Assembly: GCA_025350625.1 (NCBI GenBank)
Contig: JANXXL010000144.1
Coordinates: 1 to 32,045 of the forward strand
Source of the DNA: Bryobacterales bacterium
GTDB lineage: Bacteria; Acidobacteriota; Terriglobia; Bryobacterales; Bryobacteraceae
DNA: 32,045 bases
Reading direction: 5' to 3'
In this document: piece after piece, positions 13,464-24,213 of the stretch
How positions within the stretch are numbered: position 1 is the first letter of the stretch
How the letters are laid out: every line of letters starts with the position of its first letter
Notes under the pieces: generated by a model
The model's input: the letters and a program-made list of their open reading frames with translations, nothing else
Database searches by the model: none
Told to the model about the DNA's origin: nothing
Translations under genes and position numbers: made by a program

Positions 13464-15589
13464 TGCGGAATGGAATCCGCCTACTAAGCCTGGGCGCCGC
13501 AGTCTGGATCGTGGCGGCTGCGTGGGGGAGCCCTTTTTTCCGCAACGACGAAGGCGATCTGAATGGGCATTTCGTGCTCGCTTTGGCCCTGGCCGGGGCC
13601 GGCGTCCTTCTCGGATTCACAGCACGTACGGGCTGGAGTCACTTCGGACGTTGGCTGGCGCTGGCATTAGTTGGTCAGGCCGCTGCCCTGCAGCTTATTG
13701 ACGCCGGAACGCGAATTCACTTTCAGCATTACCGGCTGCCTCCCGAAGTTCTGGCGGATCCATTTTTGCGTTGGGCGATTTTACTGGTCGGGCTTCAGAC
13801 GCTGGCCGTACTGGCCGGGATCGGAGCCCAAGCAGGCTTCATCGGCCAGTGGATGAGACGCCCCGGACATGCCGTTCGTCTCGCGGCGGTGTTTATCCTG
13901 AGCAGTTGCGCCGCCGCGGCAGTTTCGCGAGATCAACGGTTTTTCGCGCTGGAGCTTACTTTCGCCGCGTTTGTTCAAATGGTGAATGCGGCGAACATCC
14001 TCTTCCTCGCATGGTCTATTCCGCAGGATAAACTCAAGGTTCTTTCAATGCGATTCGATTCTTGGCTCGGTAGCCGTGAGACGCGACCCGGAGCCCTCGA
14101 TCGCTTCGCGCTGCTGGCCGCGCTGTGGGTAACATTGCTTTCGGCCGGGCTGTCCTGGGGCGTTTACCAGCGTCATCCGCACGTCGCCGATGAAGTCGCC
14201 TATCTCTACAATGCCCGGTATTTCGCCGCCGGAAAAGTGGTGATGGCTCCGCCGCCGCTCGTCGGCGCATTCAACGTCGACTTGATGGATTACCAGCCTG
14301 ATAAATGGTTTTCCGCCGTACCTTTGGGCTGGCCGGCGGTTTTGACTGTGGGAGCCGCGCTGGGAATTCCATGGCTGGTGAACCCGATCCTGGCCGGCTT
14401 TAATGTCCTTCTGGTCTACCTGCTGCTCGGCGAAATTTACTCTCTTCGAATTGCCCGCATTTCGGTGCTGTTATTGTGCGCCTCCCCGTGGCACGCCTTC
14501 TTAGCCATGAGCTTCATGACGCATACCGTAACCATGACCTTCGCGCTATTGGCGTTACTGGGCGTGACGCGCGCCCGGCGGAACGGTTCGACAGCCTGGG
14601 CATTGTTGGCAGGCGCGGCGGTCGGCGCCGGGAGCCTGGTCCGCCCACTCGATGGCCTGATTGTGGGAGTTCTTGTCGGTGCCTGGGCCATTGGGGTCGG
14701 GGGAACCCGCCTGAAACTTTCGGGACTCGTCGCACTTGCGGCGGGTACGGTGCTGGTAGGCGCGCTGGTGCTCCCCTACAACAAGGCTCTCACCGGAAAT
14801 CCGACCGCCTCTCCATTAATCAGTTACTTGAATAAACAATACGGACCACACTCCAACGATTACGGTTTCGGGCCGGAACGCGGCATGGGCTGGCCTACCG
14901 ACGCGTACCCCGGCCACACGCCCTTCGAGGCACTCATCAACGCCCAATTGAATGGGGCATCGCTCAATACCGACTTGTTTGGCTGGGGGGCCGGCTCTCT
15001 ATGTCTTATCGCCGCTCTGCTATTCTCGGGAGCGTTGCGGCGTCCTGACTACCTGATGTTGTCGGCAATCGCGGTGGTCCTTCTCGCCTACGCGCCCTAC
15101 TGGGGGAACGGCGGACCGGATTTCGGCGCTCGCTATTGGTACCTGATTCTGGTGCCTTGCGTAGCCCTTTCCGCGCGCGGCCTCGAATGGCTGGAAACCG
15201 TCAGCGGCGTACGTGCCACTGCGGCAGTGGCGGTTCTGTGCGGCCTGGCGTTATTCAACTATTTACCTTGGCGATCGCTAGACAAATATCATCATTATCT
15301 TCGGATGCGCCCCGATATCCGCACCCTCTCTCAGGAGCGGAGTTTCGGCCGTAGCCTGGTCCTGGTGCGCGGCGAGCGCTTTCCGGATTACGCCTCCGCA
15401 GCGATTTACAATCCTCTGGATCTTAACTCCAACGCTCCAGTATTCGTATGGGACCACGACGCCTCGGTACGCGCGAAAATATTGAGTATTTACCCGGACC
15501 GGCCCACTTGGATCGTCGAAGGCCCCTCGATCACGCACGCCGGCTACCGGGTAGCAGCCGGGCCATTGCCTCCTGGCAGCCCGCTATGA
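13463..15589 (+). CDS. Large GT39-like membrane glycosyltransferase with extra N-terminal membrane domain
   Basis: The 708-residue protein starts at ATG 13463, overlapping the TGA of the gene before it; the frame is open further upstream but only inside that gene. The first 200 residues make about five membrane segments that other family members lack. The GT-C core then starts near 215 with a loop carrying HPHVADEVAYLYN (D243-E244), the typical acidic pair, followed by many membrane helices (MSFMTHTVTMTFALLALLG, LVRPLDG). PDFGARYWYLILVP near 580 fits the distal Arg-Tyr region. The C-terminal 90 residues are soluble. The substrate is unknown. Its stop overlaps the epimerase start (ATGA). Confidence 0.83.
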   Translation: MRNGIRLLSLGAAVWIVAAAWGSPFFRNDEGDLNGHFVLALALAGAGVLLGFTARTGWSHFGRWLALALVGQAAALQLIDAGTRIHFQHYRLPPEVLADPFLRWAILLVGLQTLAVLAGIGAQAGFIGQWMRRPGHAVRLAAVFILSSCAAAAVSRDQRFFALELTFAAFVQMVNAANILFLAWSIPQDKLKVLSMRFDSWLGSRETRPGALDRFALLAALWVTLLSAGLSWGVYQRHPHVADEVAYLYNARYFAAGKVVMAPPPLVGAFNVDLMDYQPDKWFSAVPLGWPAVLTVGAALGIPWLVNPILAGFNVLLVYLLLGEIYSLRIARISVLLLCASPWHAFLAMSFMTHTVTMTFALLALLGVTRARRNGSTAWALLAGAAVGAGSLVRPLDGLIVGVLVGAWAIGVGGTRLKLSGLVALAAGTVLVGALVLPYNKALTGNPTASPLISYLNKQYGPHSNDYGFGPERGMGWPTDAYPGHTPFEALINAQLNGASLNTDLFGWGAGSLCLIAALLFSGALRRPDYLMLSAIAVVLLAYAPYWGNGGPDFGARYWYLILVPCVALSARGLEWLETVSGVRATAAVAVLCGLALFNYLPWRSLDKYHHYLRMRPDIRTLSQERSFGRSLVLVRGERFPDYASAAIYNPLDLNSNAPVFVWDHDASVRAKILSIYPDRPTWIVEGPSITHAGYRVAAGPLPPGSPL

Positions 15590-16536
15590 GTGATTACGAT
15601 GGCAGTTACCGGGGCGTCCGCGTGGCGGTTTTAGGCGCATCCGGGTTCATCGGAAGGTGGGTTGCGCGAAAGCTATACGCGGCCGGCGCTTGCACCTACC
15701 TGGTTGTAAGGGATGCTGCAGGCGCGGTGCGAAGCGGAATTTCTGGCGAATTAGTCGAAGCCGATCTCTCGGATACCGCAGCCGTCCGCGAAATTTACAC
15801 GCGTATTCGTCCAGCGATTACCTTCAACCTGGTGGGTTACGGAATCGATCCCGGCGAGCGCGACGAAGCCATTTCCTATCGTGTGAACGCCGCCCTTCCC
15901 AAGGACATTTGTGAAGCGGCCGCAGGCTGGAAGGATTCAACTTGGGCCGGACAGCATATCGTACACGCCGGTTCGGCTCTCGAATACGGGGAAATCGGCG
16001 GGGATCTACGCGAGGACGGGGGCGCGCGGCCCACCACGGTCTATGGTAAATCGAAGCTACAGGGAACGCAGGCGATAGCGGAGCATTGCGCCGCGCTCGG
16101 ATTGCGCGGCCTAACGGCGCGCCTGTTCACGGTCTACGGCCCCGGCGAACATGCCGATCGACTCCTGCCCTCTATGATCCAGGCGAGCCGCACCGGAGAG
16201 CCTCTCAATCTCACTGCAGGCACACAAAAGCGTGACTTCACATACGTTGAGGATGTCGCCGACGGCCTGCTTCGCCTGGGGTTGGCGGAAGGAGTGGAAC
16301 CAGGCGCCGTGGTGAATCTGGCGACCGGTGAATTAGTCTCCGTCCGTGTCTTTATCGAGGAAGCAGCGGCCGTTTTGAAGGTTCCTAGCGTCAACCTAAG
16401 ATTTGGAGCGCTCCCTACCCGGCTCGAAGAAATGCAGCACGATCAAATCTCCATTCATAGACTTCGAAGTATGCTCGGGTGGATGCCCCGAACCTTAATC
16501 AAAGACGGCATCCGGCTGACCGCCGCTCCCAGATAG
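15586..16536 (+). CDS. NAD-dependent nucleotide-sugar epimerase/dehydratase (extended SDR)
   Basis: The 316-residue SDR has VAVLGASGFIG (glycine motif 17-23), HAGSALEYG (126-134, catalytic serine region) and Y153-GKS-K157. RLFTVYGPGE and RDFTYVEDVADG are the usual sugar-nucleotide-binding signatures of GalE/RmlB-like enzymes. Length and motif order suit a 4-epimerase, 4,6-dehydratase or 4-ketoreductase; the exact reaction cannot be read off. ATG 15586 overlaps the preceding TGA, and the frame upstream lies inside that gene. It is the last gene of the zero-gap run; a T8 run lies 29 bases past its stop (16565-16572), but no convincing hairpin precedes it. Confidence 0.88.
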   Translation: MSDYDGSYRGVRVAVLGASGFIGRWVARKLYAAGACTYLVVRDAAGAVRSGISGELVEADLSDTAAVREIYTRIRPAITFNLVGYGIDPGERDEAISYRVNAALPKDICEAAAGWKDSTWAGQHIVHAGSALEYGEIGGDLREDGGARPTTVYGKSKLQGTQAIAEHCAALGLRGLTARLFTVYGPGEHADRLLPSMIQASRTGEPLNLTAGTQKRDFTYVEDVADGLLRLGLAEGVEPGAVVNLATGELVSVRVFIEEAAAVLKVPSVNLRFGALPTRLEEMQHDQISIHRLRSMLGWMPRTLIKDGIRLTAAPR

Positions 16537-16612
16537 CCGACAGATTTTGTGGGATTTTAACCAGTTTTTTTTCATCGCGGGAACGCATCGCCACGGCTTC
16601 TCTGGCAAGTTT

Positions 16613-16674
16613 CGAGGGTTGGCCTGGGACCTGCAATCAACTTGGCCATAGCTAAGGAATCGGAAGCGCCGCGC
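16613..16674 (+). repeat. Copy A of a duplicated leader (matches 17829-17891)
   Basis: This non-coding stretch aligns with the leader of the radical SAM gene with one gap. The best block is CGAGGGTTGGCC then GGACCTGCAAT against CGAAGGATGGCC then GGACCTGCAAT. The alignment carries straight on into the relic coding sequence at 16675. Confidence 0.6.
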
Positions 16675-16810
16675 GTGGGATCGCCATCGGATAGGCTGAT
16701 CTATCTTGTCGATACCGCACGATGGGTTAGGCGTTAATATTGGCGTTTATCCCTCGGGAGTCTGGAACTTGGCGACATTTGCCCAGGATTTGGGAATATG
16801 GCGAGCATGA
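16675..16810 (+). pseudogene. Frameshifted 5' relic of a B12-binding radical SAM gene (paralogue of 17892-19964)
   Basis: GTG 16675 aligns exactly with the TTG start of the intact gene at 17892. The relic reads MGSPSDRLIYLVD against MGKTTDTLIYLAD. It then loses two bases relative to the intact gene and hits TAA at 16735-16737 in the original frame. In the shifted frame it continues as GVYPSGVWNLATFAQ against DVYPLGVANLATYAQ. Over 16745-16786 I count 34 of 42 identical bases by eye. The shifted frame stops at TGA 16808-16810, overlapping the second ATG of the desaturase gene. Only about the first 45 codons survive. This looks like a duplicated gene whose body was lost or replaced, with the desaturase now starting inside it. 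Confidence 0.75.
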
Positions 16811-17808
16811 GCGAGTCGAGAACGGTCTATAACGGCGCACCGCCGGCATCGGAGCTCATCACCGAGGACGGTTTGACTTGGCTCGAATACCGCAAGACCC
16901 TGAAACCCGATTATGCTCGCGCGTGGCGGGACGCCGCATTCTGCTATATCATGCTGTTCGGCGCCTTTGCCCTGCACATCGCGATTACCGTCCACCGGGG
17001 CAACACGGTTGGGCTAATACTGACGCCGCTGTCGGCCCTATGGATCGGGTTCTGGCTGCATGCCCTCAATCAGTTCGCGCATGAGGGAGCCCACGGTAAC
17101 CTCGCCCGCGACCGCAAACGTAACGACTTGCTTTCAGACTGGCTTCTTTGGCCCCTCTTCGCCCAGACAGTTCGGACCTACCGCGTAAGCCACATGCAAC
17201 ACCACGTACATCTGGGCGACCTCCAGGACACCGAGATAAACTACCACGAATGTATGCATCCGTGGCTGATAACCAAGTGTCTTACCGGCGTTCAATTAGT
17301 GGTGCTGCTGGGACATAACCTCCTGAAACCAAAGCCCGCGGCTCGCACCAGCAAGAGCGGTTCGGCTTCGCAGCGTGACCTGCTGCTGGCGGTAGCTCGG
17401 ACGGGCCTGATTCACGGCCTGTTGATTGCCGTTCCTGCCCTCTTGGGGATTTTCGGTCCGGCCTTAGCTTGGCTGGTCGGCCTGGTGGCCATTTACCCCT
17501 GCTTCGGCTCAACTCGTCAGATGCTCGAACACCGGGCTTACGACGCCCCCTGTAAGACCGATTTTTCGAAGATCGAGCACGGCGCGATCAACCGGCACTT
17601 TGGCAACGATATCTTCTCGCGCTACTTCGGCGCCGCCGGGGTCAATCACCACCTGCTCCATCACTGGGACCCCGGCATTTCGTATACCCGATTCGCCGAT
17701 ATGGAAGCTTTCATCCAGCGGACCCCCTACGCCGCCAAGATGGAAGAGGGCCGCACTACCTATTGGCGGGCTGTCAGCACTCTCTGCCAGACCGCTTTTA
17801 AGTCGTGA
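16798..17808 (+). CDS. Fatty acid desaturase-like membrane di-iron enzyme
   Basis: The 336-residue protein carries the three histidine boxes of the membrane desaturase/hydroxylase superfamily: HEGAH (95-99), HMQHH (132-136) and HHLLHH (284-289), plus LEHR (243-246) in place of the extra metal ligand seen in some members. Hydrophobic stretches near 48-90, 162-175 and 203-236 fit a membrane fold. The family introduces double bonds or hydroxyls into acyl chains or isoprenoids with O2; the substrate is not deducible. ATG 16798 has AGGA nine bases upstream; ATG 16807 (MSES) is a real alternative because it overlaps the stop of the relic frame as ATGA. The gene lies among glycan genes, next to a radical SAM enzyme, suggesting lipid tailoring. 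Confidence 0.88.
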   Translation: MASMSESRTVYNGAPPASELITEDGLTWLEYRKTLKPDYARAWRDAAFCYIMLFGAFALHIAITVHRGNTVGLILTPLSALWIGFWLHALNQFAHEGAHGNLARDRKRNDLLSDWLLWPLFAQTVRTYRVSHMQHHVHLGDLQDTEINYHECMHPWLITKCLTGVQLVVLLGHNLLKPKPAARTSKSGSASQRDLLLAVARTGLIHGLLIAVPALLGIFGPALAWLVGLVAIYPCFGSTRQMLEHRAYDAPCKTDFSKIEHGAINRHFGNDIFSRYFGAAGVNHHLLHHWDPGISYTRFADMEAFIQRTPYAAKMEEGRTTYWRAVSTLCQTAFKS

Positions 17809-17828
17809 ACGCCAGCGCGTCTTTTAGC

Positions 17829-17891
17829 CGAAGGATGGCCGAGGACCTGCAATAGAGGGACCAGTTCACAACGATAGGGCTGAGGCAACGC
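17829..17891 (+). repeat. Copy B of the duplicated leader, with the ribosome binding site of the radical SAM gene
   Basis: This leader is homologous to 16613-16674. It includes TGAGG (17881-17885) six bases before TTG 17892, which supports that unusual start codon. No hairpin or promoter is evident. Confidence 0.55.
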
Positions 17892-19964
17892 TTGGGTAAA
17901 ACAACGGATACGCTGATCTATCTCGCCGATCTGGGGCACAATCAGTTGACGGTCAGTTCCGACGTTTATCCCCTGGGAGTCGCGAACCTGGCGACCTATG
18001 CGCAGTCCACCGTTTCTTCAGCCAGCCTCAAAGTCCGCATCTTTCGTGAACCGGAAGATCTTAAAACCGCCATTGATGCGCAGGTTCCCGACATCCTGGG
18101 CTTGAGCAGTTATTCCTGGAATCACCATCTTGCCCTGTCCTTTGCCAGATACGCCAAGGCCAAAAATTCTGCAGCGTTGACGCTGATGGGTGGGCCGAAT
18201 TTTCCGCTGATCAGGGAGGAGCAGGAAAGCTGGCTGCGAAAGATGCCCGAGATCGACATCGCAGTGCGCGGTCCGACATACGAAAGCGAACGTGCATTCC
18301 GGAACTTGATCCAACGCTACCTGGACACCGGGAGTTCGATCGATGGACTCCAGGAAGAGTCCGTACCCGGCAATCTGTGGATTGACCGGCGAACTCGCGC
18401 CTTCGTTGTGGGCGCGGAAGTGGACCGCATTTTGGATCTGGACGAAATCCCTTCCCCCTATTTAGCGGGATTTATGAATTCATTCTATTCCACCGGCTAT
18501 CTGCCCATGCTGCAGATTACCCGTGGTTGCCCGTTTACTTGTTCTTTCTGCAATTCTTCGGTCCGCTCCAACAGCAAGGTCTACCGTCATTCGATCGAAA
18601 ACCTCCGGGCCGATTTGATTCACGTCGCGGAGCGAGTCCGGCCCGAAGTGGCTCTCACCTTCGCCGACGATAACTTCGGCATGTACGACGCCGACGAAGA
18701 GGTCGCAGACTTCATCGCGCATCTTCAGGAACGCTACGAATGGCCGAACTACATTCGCACCACGACCGGCAAAAATCGGGGCGAGCGGATCATCAAAATC
18801 ATGCGGAAGATTCGCGGCGCGCTGCCCATGACCGCAGCCGTTCAATCGATGAATCCAATGGTTTTGAAGAACATTGAACGATCCAACATCAAGCTGGACA
18901 CCTATACGCAGATTCAGACCGAGGTCCGGGCGCAAGGCATGCAGTCGTATGGCGAGATGATCCTGTGCCTTCCTGGCGAGAGCAAGGAGTCCTTCATGAA
19001 AGGCGTCCGCGACCTGATGGACGCGGGTGTGACCAGAATCTCCGCCCACCAGTTAATGCTCTTGCACGGCGCGCCGCTCAGCAATCCGGAGAGCCGCAAA
19101 AAGTTTGGCTTGAAGACCATGGTGCGAGTGGTGGCGAGGGATATCGGAAATTACACCGGCGAACCGGTGATCGAGACCGAGGAGATGGTTGTCAGCACGC
19201 CCACGTTCAGCTTCGAGGAATACCTGGAAGTCCGCGTATTTCATCTCTTACTCACCATCTTTTACTACGAAGGCAATTTTGAAGAAGTCTTCGAGCTCGC
19301 GCGCCAGCAAGGCGTGAAAGCTTTCGACCTCGTCGTGCGTATGCAAGCCATGCTGGACGACGCGCCGCCGAAGTTCCGCCAGTTGATCGACGATTTCGTG
19401 CGCGAAAGCCGTGAAGAATTGTTTCCAACCAGAGAAGAGTGCGTGGCCTGGGCGCGCCAGAATTTTGCCGGACTGCTCAGCGGGGAGCTAGGGGGCAACC
19501 TGCTCAGCAAGTACTCCATGCTCGGCCGGTTCTATGTGACGCACGATGCTCTGGATTTCCTGCGCCAAGCCGTACATGCCGCGACAGCCGGCACGCGGGA
19601 GCAAACTGAAGACGTTGTCGAGTATCTGCGCTGCCTTCTGCTGCACTCTCCTTTTATCGAAACCTTGAGGGAAACTCCGGCCTGGAAGGGCGGTTTCGAT
19701 GTCGAGGCATGGAGGGAAGAAAAGTACCAGAAACCTCTCTCTGCTTTCCGTTACCCGGCAACCCGAACCTTCGCAACCGCCGTCGAACCCGAGCGGAAGG
19801 CCCTGATCGAGAACCGGCTCAGAACCTTCGGCGAGCATCCGTCCGGATTGGGGAAGTTTACGCGTACGATGTTTGCGCGAGACCTGCGGCGGACCCTGAT
19901 TTCTTTGCCACCGCCTGAAATGCTCGCCGGCGCTCGCCAGGTCGCCTTAACGGACAGGCCCTAA
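17892..19964 (+). CDS. B12-binding domain radical SAM protein
   Basis: The 690-residue protein has an N-terminal cobalamin-binding-like region (VYPLGVANLATYAQS at 25-39; ILGLSSYSWNHH; TLMGGPNFPL near 97-106) and a radical SAM core with RGCPFTCSFC (C213, C217, C220 binding the [4Fe-4S] cluster). The core is followed by about 200 further residues that I do not recognise. Members methylate or rearrange unactivated carbons, often on lipids, hopanoids or antibiotics. The start is TTG 17892, backed by TGAGG at correct spacing and by alignment with the GTG start of the relic upstream; no in-frame ATG precedes the conserved N-terminus. Adjacent to the desaturase, it probably modifies a lipid or an unusual sugar. 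The class is certain, the reaction unknown. Confidence 0.9.
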   Translation: MGKTTDTLIYLADLGHNQLTVSSDVYPLGVANLATYAQSTVSSASLKVRIFREPEDLKTAIDAQVPDILGLSSYSWNHHLALSFARYAKAKNSAALTLMGGPNFPLIREEQESWLRKMPEIDIAVRGPTYESERAFRNLIQRYLDTGSSIDGLQEESVPGNLWIDRRTRAFVVGAEVDRILDLDEIPSPYLAGFMNSFYSTGYLPMLQITRGCPFTCSFCNSSVRSNSKVYRHSIENLRADLIHVAERVRPEVALTFADDNFGMYDADEEVADFIAHLQERYEWPNYIRTTTGKNRGERIIKIMRKIRGALPMTAAVQSMNPMVLKNIERSNIKLDTYTQIQTEVRAQGMQSYGEMILCLPGESKESFMKGVRDLMDAGVTRISAHQLMLLHGAPLSNPESRKKFGLKTMVRVVARDIGNYTGEPVIETEEMVVSTPTFSFEEYLEVRVFHLLLTIFYYEGNFEEVFELARQQGVKAFDLVVRMQAMLDDAPPKFRQLIDDFVRESREELFPTREECVAWARQNFAGLLSGELGGNLLSKYSMLGRFYVTHDALDFLRQAVHAATAGTREQTEDVVEYLRCLLLHSPFIETLRETPAWKGGFDVEAWREEKYQKPLSAFRYPATRTFATAVEPERKALIENRLRTFGEHPSGLGKFTRTMFARDLRRTLISLPPPEMLAGARQVALTDRP

Positions 19965-20000
19965 CGGGGATTCGGAATTGCCAACATCCAGCAAATGTTT

Positions 20001-20080
20001 GGCCCAATTCCTGCAATCGCCTAACTATATACCATGCGAATCCGGACAATGGATGTTCCGGGAGTGCCTGACTTGACGGC
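20001..20080 (+). repeat. Possible third, decayed copy of the radical SAM leader and 5' end
   Basis: GGCC-x5-CCTGCAATC (20001-20018) matches the element at 16621-16638. CGGGAGT-x5-ACTTG (20059-20075) matches 16755-16771 with identical spacing, and reads GVPDLTAGTSQS against GVANLATYAQS. The distance between the two blocks is 76 bases shorter than in the relic, so an internal deletion must be assumed. The similarity is suggestive only. The rest of the gap (19965-20177) holds no gene that I can support. Confidence 0.3.
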
Positions 20081-20177
20081 CGGGACCTCCCAATCCGTGG
20101 GAATTATGACGGTTAATTTTCCTCAAAAACATTGCGGCTGCCGACCGAAGCGCGCCCAAAAAGGGAGGGCGTAACTT

Positions 20178-20969
20178 GTGCCTTTTGAAAACCCACTAGC
20201 GGGCATGGGGGAGCGCAGGCCCGAACTTTCCTTAGTGATGCCCTGTTACAACGAGGAAGAATGCCTGGAGCTAACCGTACCGCCGCTGGTTCAGGCGTTC
20301 CAGCAGGCGGGAGTCGACCTGGAATTAATCCTGGTAGATAATGGATCGGTCGATGGCACAGGCGCGGTCATCAGCCGTCTCATCGAACAGGGCCTTCCCA
20401 TCGTCAAAGCAGTGGTGCCGGTCAACCGGGGTCTGGGTCTGGGGATTCTTACCGGTCTGCGAATCTGCAGGGGACGCTATGCCGGGTACCTTTGCGCGGA
20501 CGGCCAAGTCGCTCCCGAGAGTGTGTTGCTGGTTTACCGCGCGCTCCACGCCGCCGATGGAAGGACGCTTGCGAAAGTGCGCCGGCGCTTCCGTAAAGAC
20601 AGTTGGATTCGTAAGATCGTCTCGATGGGGTACAACGGCCTGATGTTACTGCTGTTTCCCGGCATGCCCTCTCTCGATATCAATGGCAACCCCAAAATTT
20701 TGCCGGCCGAGGTCCTGGCATTGATGGACCTCACATCAACCGACTGGTTTGTCGATGCCGAGGTGATGCTGAAAGCCCAGTATCTGCGGTTGATGGTAAT
20801 GGAAATCGATGTCCCCGGCTATCTGCGGCAAAGAGGGAATTCAAACGTTCGCATTCAGACGGTGTTCGAATTCGCCGGCAACATCGTGAGGTATCGCTTT
20901 GGCGGACCGTGGCGTCAATGGCGCAAACAGGTCTCGGAAATACCTGCGCCCGAGGTCAATGTGGTTTGA
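20178..20969 (+). CDS. GT2 glycosyltransferase, polyprenyl-phosphate glycosyltransferase type
   Basis: The 263-residue protein starts with GTG 20178, preceded by GGGAGG at 8-9 bases, a strong ribosome binding site that decides the start. LSLVMPCYNEEE (18-29), LVDNGSVDGT (52-61) and NRGLGLGILTG are typical of DPM1-like GT2 enzymes. The metal-binding region reads YLCADGQVAP (104-113), so the first Asp of the usual DADGQ is replaced by Cys. There is no C-terminal membrane domain. The likely role is transfer of a sugar to a lipid phosphate or to a growing glycan on the cytoplasmic side. It starts the second CDP-sugar group; its stop overlaps the methyltransferase start (TGATG). Confidence 0.86.
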   Translation: MPFENPLAGMGERRPELSLVMPCYNEEECLELTVPPLVQAFQQAGVDLELILVDNGSVDGTGAVISRLIEQGLPIVKAVVPVNRGLGLGILTGLRICRGRYAGYLCADGQVAPESVLLVYRALHAADGRTLAKVRRRFRKDSWIRKIVSMGYNGLMLLLFPGMPSLDINGNPKILPAEVLALMDLTSTDWFVDAEVMLKAQYLRLMVMEIDVPGYLRQRGNSNVRIQTVFEFAGNIVRYRFGGPWRQWRKQVSEIPAPEVNVV

Positions 20970-22204
20970 TGAGAAGCTTTCATCACCGGCGAACCTCTTG
21001 CCGCGCCTGCGACGGTGAACGCCTGATGCCATTCTTGAACCTGGGGCGGCAGCCCTTGGCGAATGCCTTCCTCGAGTCCCCCGACGAGTTTGCGCGCGAG
21101 GCGTTTTATCCGCTCGAAGTCTATTTTTGTGAGAACTGTTCCCTGGTGCAATTGCTCGATGTCGTCGATCCCGACGTGCTGTTTCGCGATTACATCTATG
21201 TGACCGGGACTTCGGAAACCATGGCGACTCATAATGCCGCCTACGCGCACACGGTTCGAGATCTATTGAATCTTATGTCGAGCGATTTAGTGGTAGAGGT
21301 CGCCAGCAACGACGGCAGCCTGCTACGGCAATTTCAAAAGCTGGGCGTTCGCACGCTAGGGGTCGAACCGGCGCGCAACCTTGCGGCGGTGGCGCGAGCT
21401 GGTGGTATCGAGACGGTCGACCATTTTTTCAGCTCCGATACCGCGCGCGCCGTGCGCGAGTCTCACGGGGCAGCCAAAGCGGTGATCGCAAATAATGTCC
21501 TCGCGCACGTCGACGACACCCGCGATTTTTTATGCGGGGCGCGCCACCTGCTCGCGAGCGACGGCCTGCTGGTGTTCGAGGTTCCCTACGTCGCGGAATT
21601 ACTCGATCGCCTGGAATACGACACGATTTACCACGAGCATCTGTGCTACTTCTCGGTGATGGCCCTTCGCAAACTGTGCGAAAGCGCCGGCCTTTCCATT
21701 ATGCGAATCGATCGTGTGCCGGTGCATGGCGGGTCGCTGCGGGTCTACGCCGGCCTTCAGCCAACTCACGCCGCGGCGGTGGCCAGTTTCATTGACGTCG
21801 AGGGGGAGATGGGGCTGCATTCTCCGCTGCGCTACCGGAAATTCGCCGCCGATGTCGAGAAAAGCCGCTTGCTTTTGCGCAAGATGGTCTGCGGTTTGCG
21901 CACCCAGGGGCGTACTGTAGCCGCTTATGGCGCACCCGCCAAGGGAAATACGCTGTTGAACTATTGCGGCATCGACGCCAGCATTATTTCCTATACCGTC
22001 GACCGCAATGAACGCAAGGTGGGACTCTACACCCCAGGAATGCATATTCCGGTGCGGCCGGTTTCGGTCCTCGAAGAATCCCAGCCCGACGACGTTCTCA
22101 TTCTCGCCTGGAACTTCGCCGGCGAAATTATGAAGCAGCAGGCAGGGTACCGTGCCCAGGGCGGACGCTTCATTACTCCCGTGCCGGAACCGGTGGTGCA
22201 CTGA
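20969..22204 (+). CDS. Class I SAM methyltransferase, sugar C-methyltransferase type (zinc-binding N-domain)
   Basis: The 411-residue protein has three parts. An N-terminal zinc-binding region carries C11-x2-C14 and C54-x2-C57. The SAM-binding core has VVEVASNDGSLL (108-119). The C-terminal domain has AYGAPAKGNTLLNYCGI, the signature of the NovU/TylC3/TcaB9-like sugar methyltransferases. Family members put a methyl group on a ketosugar carbon, usually C-3, making branched deoxysugars. ATG 20969 overlaps the GT2 stop; the frame is open 60 bases upstream, but that is inside the GT2 gene. It is followed two bases later by the cytidylyltransferase, so a CDP-linked ketosugar is the likely substrate (inference). 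Confidence 0.9.
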   Translation: MRSFHHRRTSCRACDGERLMPFLNLGRQPLANAFLESPDEFAREAFYPLEVYFCENCSLVQLLDVVDPDVLFRDYIYVTGTSETMATHNAAYAHTVRDLLNLMSSDLVVEVASNDGSLLRQFQKLGVRTLGVEPARNLAAVARAGGIETVDHFFSSDTARAVRESHGAAKAVIANNVLAHVDDTRDFLCGARHLLASDGLLVFEVPYVAELLDRLEYDTIYHEHLCYFSVMALRKLCESAGLSIMRIDRVPVHGGSLRVYAGLQPTHAAAVASFIDVEGEMGLHSPLRYRKFAADVEKSRLLLRKMVCGLRTQGRTVAAYGAPAKGNTLLNYCGIDASIISYTVDRNERKVGLYTPGMHIPVRPVSVLEESQPDDVLILAWNFAGEIMKQQAGYRAQGGRFITPVPEPVVH

Positions 22205-22205
22205 T

Positions 22206-22976
22206 ATGAAAGTGGTCCTACTCGCCGGCGGTAAAGGGACGCGTCTCGCAGAAGAGACTATCGTGCGCCCCAAACCTATGGTCGAGATCGGGGGGAAGCC
22301 GCTGCTGTGGCATCTCATGAAGGTCTACGCCGCGCATGGATTCACCGAGTTTTTAGTCGCCTGCGGATACAAGGGCGAGATGATCAAGGAGTATTTCCAC
22401 AATTTCCCCATCCATAGCAGCGATTATTTTATCGATCTGGCCACCGGGAATCGAACCGAGGTGCACGGCAGCGGGATTAACTGGCGCGTCGGGCTTATCG
22501 ATACCGGCCTCGAAACCAATACCGGCGGGCGAATACGGCGGCTTCGGGAAATGATCGGGGATCAGCCCTTCATGGTGACCTACGGCGACGGCTTGGGAAA
22601 TATCAATATCTGCGCGCTGGCGGAATTTCACCGGTCACATGGAAAGATCGCCACCGTGACTGCCGTGCGGCCCCCTTCGCGTTTCGGGAATTTGACATTG
22701 CAGGGCACGACTGTTTCCGAGTTTGCCGAAAAACCTCAGGCCCACGAAGGCTGGATCAACGGCGGCTTCTTCGTCTTCAGCCCGGAGATTTTCGACTACC
22801 TGGCCGATGACGACACATGTCTTGAGCAAGAGCCCTTAGAGCGGCTGGCGAAGGAGCACCAGCTTATGGCTTTCCGGCACTCGGGTTTCTGGCAACCGAT
22901 GGATACTTTGCGCGAAAAGCAGCTTCTCGAATCGCTGTGGTCGGCGGGCCAAGCCCCCTGGAAAATATGGAACTGA
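22206..22976 (+). CDS. rfbF: Glucose-1-phosphate cytidylyltransferase
   Basis: The 256-residue protein has the nucleotidyltransferase signature [13 protein letters not shown] (5-17) followed by [42 protein letters not shown] and [17 protein letters not shown] follow in the order seen in RfbF/DdhA. It makes CDP-glucose from glucose-1-phosphate and CTP, the entry step to CDP-6-deoxysugars such as abequose, paratose, tyvelose and yersiniose. Length equals that of known RfbF proteins. The start ATG 22206 lies one base after the methyltransferase stop, and the stop overlaps the dehydratase start by ten bases. This is one of the firmest functional calls in the window. Confidence 0.93.
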
Positions 22977-23968
22977 ACGGCTGGAAGAATCGCAACGTTT
23001 TCGTTACCGGCGCCGCGGGCCTGCTCGGCTCCTGGCTGACCGAGGCTTTGATCGAACGAGGCGCCACCGTCACCTGTCTGCTGCGCGACTGGGTGCCGGA
23101 CAGCCGGCTGGTAAGCTCGGGCCTATCGAACCGGTCGAATATCGTCCGCGGCGAACTCGAAGACGTGGCGCTTCTAACCCGCGTGCTGAATGAGTACGAA
23201 ATCGACACAGTGTTCCATCTTGGGGCGCAGACCATCGTGGGCACTGCGTCGCGTTCGGCGCTGTCAACCTTCGAATCGAATATTCGCGGCACCTGGAATC
23301 TGCTCGAAGCCTGCAAAACCTGTTCGCGGTTGATAAAGCGAATTGTGATCGCGTCGAGCGACAAAGCCTACGGCGCGCATGACCATCTGCCCTATACCGA
23401 AGATATGCCTCTGCAGGGCCGCTTCCCCTACGATGTCTCGAAATCCTGTGCCGACCTGATTGCCTTCTCCTATTTCCACACCTACCGCCTCCCCGTGGTG
23501 GTCACGCGTTGCGGCAATTTATTTGGCGGAGGCGACTTGAACTACAACCGCCTCATACCCGGCACGATTCGCTCGATTCTCCGTGGCGAAGCACCTATTA
23601 TCCGCAGCGATGGTAGTTTTGTGCGCGATTACTTTTACGTTCGCGATGCAGTGGAAGCTTATCTGCTGCTCGCCGAAAAGCTCTCCGAGGAGCAGATCGC
23701 CGGCGAGGCGTTCAACTTCGGCAATGAAACCCCGTTGTCGGTGATCGATGTGGTGCGCCGGATTCTGAGTTCAATGGGCCAGACCTCGCTCCAGCCGGTG
23801 ATCCTGAACGAGGCCTCGCATGAAATCCCGCGGCAATATTTGGATTGCTCCAAAGCCCAGCGTCTGCTTGGATGGAAGCCCGTATTCAGCTTTGAACAAG
23901 GATTAGAGGAAACCATCGCCTGGTACGAGGAACACCTTGGCGTTCGCGAAATGGTAATCCAGGCATGA
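22967..23968 (+). CDS. CDP-glucose 4,6-dehydratase-like SDR
   Basis: The 333-residue extended SDR starts at ATG 22967, inside the end of the cytidylyltransferase gene. Motifs are [14 protein letters not shown] (glycine motif 15-21), [15 protein letters not shown] (129-136, where RfbG-type enzymes have TSDKCY) and Y155-DVS-K159. [19 protein letters not shown] and [18 protein letters not shown] are typical of the CDP-glucose and GDP-mannose 4,6-dehydratase group. The direct overlap with the cytidylyltransferase gene supports CDP-glucose as substrate, giving CDP-4-keto-6-deoxyglucose for the methyltransferase upstream. A GDP-mannose or other NDP-sugar dehydratase cannot be excluded. Confidence 0.82.
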
Positions 23969-24213
23969 ACTGCCCCAAATGAAGCGCCTCTTGCAGCACC
24001 GTGACTTAGCTGAAGACGGTACCGATGGTTTGGAAAACATCCCTTCTTTTCGACTGGCGGCGCGCGAAGATTGCGCGAAAACCCCCCTCACCGCGACTTT
24101 CGACCTTTCTACCGCTCCGGACAAGCGCGCAAGCTAAGGTCCGGCGAATGGCCCTCGTTTTGCGAGTTGCAATAGCTTCCGGGGAGGCAACGAACTCACC
24201 GGTTAGTGCCTGA
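23969..24213. other. Intergenic gap without a recognised gene
   Basis: The 245-base gap breaks the otherwise tight plus-strand series. A 62-codon frame (24025-24213) abuts the next start but has no ribosome binding site or recognisable product. GGGGAGG at 24181-24187 is too far (26 bases) from ATG 24214 to serve it. No terminator hairpin with T-run or clear promoter is seen. Confidence 0.4.

Follow-up and report, generated by a model that had tools for sequence, protein, structure and literature searches.

The intergenic region in front of a membrane fatty-acid desaturase/hydroxylase family gene in a Bryobacterales bacterium carries a decayed copy of the leader and first 38 codons of a B12-binding/radical SAM gene, whose intact parent copy is located on the other side of the desaturase. 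This arrangement was probably produced by a single event, namely entry of the desaturase at the 5' end of the radical SAM gene together with duplication of the target, the relic being the upstream copy of the resulting repeat. The features of the window (the entire stretch of DNA analysed, 32,045 nucleotides) that bear on this proposal are as follows.

15586-16536, plus strand: NAD-dependent epimerase/dehydratase gene (Pfam PF01370, E 3.6e-35), which in relatives normally lies 5' of the radical SAM gene
16613-16674, plus strand: relic of the radical SAM leader (copy 1), matching 17829-17891 with a score reached by 0 of 2000 shuffles
16675-16786, plus strand: remnant of codons 1-38 of the radical SAM gene, short by a net 2 bases, defined by alignment score and codon-position differences
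16785-16788, plus strand: AGGA, a Shine-Dalgarno-like sequence of putative function, 9 bases before the ATG at 16798 and straddling the relic/insert junction
16787-17828, plus strand: inserted segment between the direct-repeat copies, defined by the repeat boundaries and its absence at the same place in relatives
16798-17808, plus strand: intact membrane fatty-acid-desaturase/hydroxylase family gene (Pfam PF00487, E 9.4e-23)
17829-17891, plus strand: leader of the functional radical SAM gene (copy 2), defined by alignment and repeat boundaries
17892-19964, plus strand: intact B12-binding/radical SAM gene, the parent of the relic (Pfam PF04055 and PF02310; CxxxCxxC at residue 213)

A frame-broken copy of a gene start

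Positions 16613-16786 are a copy of the radical SAM gene leader and first 38 codons (17829-18005), with z values of about 16-19 relative to shuffled sequences. The original prediction had described such a match and had proposed a pairwise alignment of 16600-16830 with 17815-18040 as a check. This local alignment scores 62 under a 2/-3 scheme, whereas 2000 dinucleotide shuffles give 17.0 +/- 2.3 with a maximum of 29, and thus the predicted match lies far beyond shuffled sequence. Under a 1/-1 scheme the same two segments score 56.5 versus 13.4 +/- 2.4 (maximum 26), and a further alignment of the gap preceding the desaturase with the 5' end of the radical SAM gene scores 59.5 versus 14.4 +/- 2.7. 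The leader block and the codon block, each taken alone, exceed all 2000 shuffles, and the codon part of the relic reaches an alignment score of 45.5 versus a null of 10.2 +/- 2.1. Ungapped repeat finding resolves the match into three co-linear blocks with spacings of 1216, 1217 and 1219:

Block 1, 16613-16637 and 17829-17853: 84% identity, 21 of 25 positions ungapped
Block 2, 16672-16713 and 17889-17930: 76% identity
Block 3, 16717-16786 and 17936-18005: 70% identity

When alignments are compared with shuffles, homology is undetectable 5' of 16613 and 3' of 16786, and the relic is therefore approximately 175 bases long (174 at 16613-16786). It covers 38 parental codons and not the 45 or so that had been proposed. 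The desaturase does begin where the relic stops, as had been suggested, but its start is not embedded in the relic, because homology ends 11 bases before the ATG at 16798.

The GTG at 16675 pairs with the TTG start codon at 17892, in agreement with the original prediction, and opens a frame that runs for 20 codons before a TAA at 16735-16737. The frame is broken by the predicted 2-base deletion, wherein 67 bases separate the start codon from the second coding block in the relic versus 69 in the parent, and the earlier count of 34 identical bases out of 42 over 16745-16786 is exact. A second frame of the relic ends with a TGA at 16808-16810, and this codon overlaps the ATG at 16807, as had been noted; the same ATG is an alternative start for the desaturase. 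The TTG start gives the parent about 6 codons beyond those of most homologs, which begin MRI(F/Y)LADLGHN, and the true start may differ.

Two further candidate matches in this region were rejected. A possible third copy at 20000-20017, just 3' of the radical SAM gene and with three mismatches to the leader motif, has an alignment P of 0.18-0.38 and an E of 6.5 in a profile search. In comparisons of 16537-16612 with the 3' end of the desaturase, the body of the radical SAM gene and the spacer that follows it, similarity is at chance level.

Decay and origin of the copy

Over 28 codons, the differences between the relic and its parent are distributed 7/7/5 by codon position, whereas those between the parent and its closest ortholog, a 76% identical gene in locus L005, are distributed 2/2/16 over 22 codons (Fisher P 0.001; P 0.0035 on matched codons). 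Five amino-acid changes fall in codons that could be polarised (A to V, D to G, L to S, A to W and Y to F), and every one of them is a departure of the relic from the resident residue, which is present in 21 to 24 of 24 homologs. The flat codon-position pattern and the relic-side changes at conserved residues show that the copy has been decaying in the absence of protein-level constraint, and on this evidence we judge the relic to be dead as a protein. Divergence now stands at approximately 23% in aligned codons, plus indels. Homology to a functional parent, a disabled frame and lost protein-level constraint, the marks of a pseudogene fragment, are all seen in the relic.

One could propose that the segment is instead a conserved functional element, such as a regulatory RNA, a leader peptide or a member of a repeat family, and the 84% identity of the 25-base leader block, the best kept between the two copies, is in keeping with this. 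However, a whole-genome search with the segment recovers only the neighbouring parent and no other copy, the one Rfam match is at chance level and outside the segment, and the coding part has lost its frame and shows substitutions spread evenly over codon positions. In addition, the relic DNA matches none of the related loci compared, the parent excepted, while the parent's own 5' end matches dozens. This last result also counts against the alternative raised with the original prediction, that relatives might carry the segment as an unrelated conserved element. We regard a functional element as extremely improbable.

Over 60 aligned coding bases, the relic is nearest to the resident gene (49/60; the next best is 42), and a 60-column tree joins the relic to the parent with a support of 85, with branch lengths of 0.25 for the relic and about 0 for the parent. 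The relic leader likewise resembles the leader of the resident gene and not that of L005. The grouping with the resident gene and the location of change on the relic branch show that the copy arose within its own lineage after the split from L005, the nearest relative. An identical layout would exist if the stub were the old native gene start and the desaturase and radical SAM gene had come together from a donor, making the stub and the gene xenologs. Divergence between orthologs should then be concentrated at silent sites, which is contrary to the flat pattern and the non-synonymous changes described above, and both the tree and the leader tie the relic to the resident gene. This history is thus very improbable.

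Gene order in related genomes

There are 80 related loci, collected by scanning genome contigs with a two-sequence profile. In ten of these (L006, L007, L008, L010, L011, L012, L013, L015, L026 and L044), which by record title come from Acidobacteria and several other phyla, the epimerase gene immediately precedes the radical SAM gene, and no desaturase separates the two. The genes downstream usually encode, in order, a GT2 glycosyltransferase, a C-methyltransferase, a nucleotidyltransferase and a further dehydratase. No relative of the desaturase was found at E below 1e-8 in 23 genomes that carry this radical SAM gene; the query is capable of detecting relatives, as it matches sequences in G000, G123 and G782 in other searches. 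The adjacency of epimerase and radical SAM gene in relatives that have no desaturase there marks the desaturase as a newcomer, and gene order thus argues that it is an insertion into an otherwise widespread module. A second full-length radical SAM gene, which the original prediction suggested looking for in related genomes, does not adjoin the first in any relative examined.

The radical SAM gene has moved within the cluster in L005, where it is located between two GT39-like genes (L005:8301-15820) and not after the epimerase. Because of this placement, the gene order of the immediate ancestor is not certain; the outgroups nevertheless share the order seen in the window, except for the desaturase. 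Neither the radical SAM gene nor the desaturase was found in 22 congeners at E below 1e-20. The genome is a draft of 417 contigs with an estimated 5.5% contamination, and since the cluster is also absent from congeners, the entire cluster may have been acquired laterally or may have been binned in error, neither of which alters the relation between stub and parent. An assembly misjoin is unlikely because the two copies differ by more than 20%.

The module of epimerase, B12/radical SAM, GT2, C-methyltransferase, nucleotidyltransferase and 4,6-dehydratase-like genes is widespread in several phyla, and is seen at 17892-24000 and in L006, L007, L010, L012, L013, L015 and L044. In L007, the C-methyltransferase and GT39-like matches (L007:6208-7358 and L007:152-2181) are each in two pieces, which suggests frameshifts or sequencing errors in that assembly. 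We also considered membership of the parent in the KedN5 family of B12 radical SAM C-methyltransferases, and rejected it because the protein scores 191.7 bits versus the NCBIfam NF033712 cut-off of 700 bits. By this score the protein is related to the KedN5 family without being a member, and the radical SAM proteins of the module may constitute an undescribed subfamily found in glycan clusters.

The inserted desaturase gene

The desaturase frame is open over 336 codons and includes the His boxes HEGAH, HMQHH and HHLLHH. It is the only coding content of the insert, which otherwise consists of 11 bases before the gene and 20 after it. Base composition is close to that of neighbouring genes (GC 0.592, GC3 0.730) and therefore provides no signal of a donor. 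The desaturase is rare in the genomes surveyed: the sole relative is 34% identical among 396 genomes of the same phylum and 39% identical among 398 genomes of another phylum; both adjoin other genes, and neither has a radical SAM neighbour of the parent's family. Viral contigs contain no relatives, and those on plasmids are weak (under 30%). No promoter consensus was found in 16400-18100.

The stub can serve as a local neutral clock, having accumulated its codon changes and indels while the neighbouring desaturase stayed open. A frame as long as that of the desaturase survives random substitutions at the level of the relic in only 20 of 20,000 simulated trials. Provided that insertion and duplication happened together, this contrast implies that the desaturase has been under selection, and it is then probably a working part of the cluster.

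Models for the origin of the arrangement

The desaturase segment is bracketed by direct repeats of its target, occupies the whole space between the two repeat copies, and is absent from this place in relatives, all of which is characteristic of insertion with target duplication. Since the desaturase is a newcomer between normally adjacent genes, a single insertion with partial 5' duplication needs fewer steps than its rivals. A segment of about 1 kb carrying the desaturase would have entered the 5' end of the B12/radical SAM gene, within a surface-glycan (sugar-polymer) cluster, and would have duplicated about 175 bases comprising the leader and 38 codons. The insert would then be preceded by a broken 5' stub and followed by the radical SAM gene in complete form. 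Incoming DNA could, for example, have been added through recombination that was in part illegitimate (additive insertion). Against this model, the junctions show neither clear microhomology nor clear mobile-element ends. We rejected a transposon target-site duplication, given a repeat of about 175 bp, the lack of an inverted-repeat pair at the insert ends and an insert that encodes only the desaturase. Among the relatives examined, none was found to share this layout, and the order of events is therefore inferred from one case.

The most serious competitor is a full tandem duplication of the radical SAM gene, in which the first copy later lost its body, either by deletion or by replacement with the desaturase. 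Side-by-side genes would predict a repeat that starts near the gene leader and an insert that ends just before the second leader, and this is what is seen. However, at least two events are needed, no relative examined has two adjacent copies, and the 20 bases between the desaturase and the second leader are unlike the sequence that follows the radical SAM gene (P 0.90). Nor was any body or 3' remnant detected, in a search of low power since only 11 + 20 bases lie outside the desaturase. The original idea of a tandem duplicate thus holds in that the segment is a decaying, non-coding paralogous 5' copy, but a complete copy that later lost its body finds no such remnant in its favour. We consider this order of events possible but rather unlikely.

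Perhaps the desaturase was inserted first, the desaturase and the radical SAM 5' end were then duplicated in tandem, and the first desaturase was later lost. A match can be drawn between approximately 16569-16591 and the desaturase end plus post-stop sequence (approximately 17796-17818), but it is at chance level (P 0.48; P 0.31 in a wider test), and because more events are needed as well, we view this sequence of steps as improbable.

Under insertion with target duplication, the stub would have no protein function and would persist as a scar, and its junction would now serve the desaturase as a ribosome-binding site. It is doubtful, though conceivable, that the stub has been kept because the junction provides the desaturase with expression signals, namely the AGGA sequence and the ATGA-type overlap between the second frame of the stub and the second ATG of the desaturase. 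If so, the insertion with duplication left the resident gene unharmed and at the same time equipped the incoming gene with a ready-made ribosome-binding site. The stub is a record of an accessory gene entering a surface-glycan cluster without breaking its target gene.

Comparison with known systems

Events of this type are already known, and the locus is best considered an ordinary but instructive genomic scar whose significance beyond the locus is modest. Bacterial intergenic pseudogene fragments are described in two reports (PMC522871, PMC3164680). The relic resembles the fragments described there in being a recognisable, frame-broken gene remnant that lacks protein-level constraint, and differs from them in that a 5' stub and an intact parent bracket an inserted gene.

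In the pneumococcal clone R3022, a small tandem duplication was formed by additive insertion during transformation (PMC3784515). There, too, cassette insertion was accompanied by duplication of the target locus in the absence of flanking repeats, and an intact copy was left. However, 3,276 bp were duplicated under laboratory selection in R3022, whereas the repeat reported here is about 175 bp, old and decayed, and its mechanism is inferred. A third comparison is the displacement of T6SS effector genes with retention of orphan genes, for which homology-facilitated illegitimate recombination has been proposed (PMC5361080). In both systems, the arrival of a new gene in a cluster leaves fragments of resident genes behind. 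The T6SS effector is displaced and its 3' parts stay, whereas the radical SAM gene remains intact and it is a 5' stub that is left.
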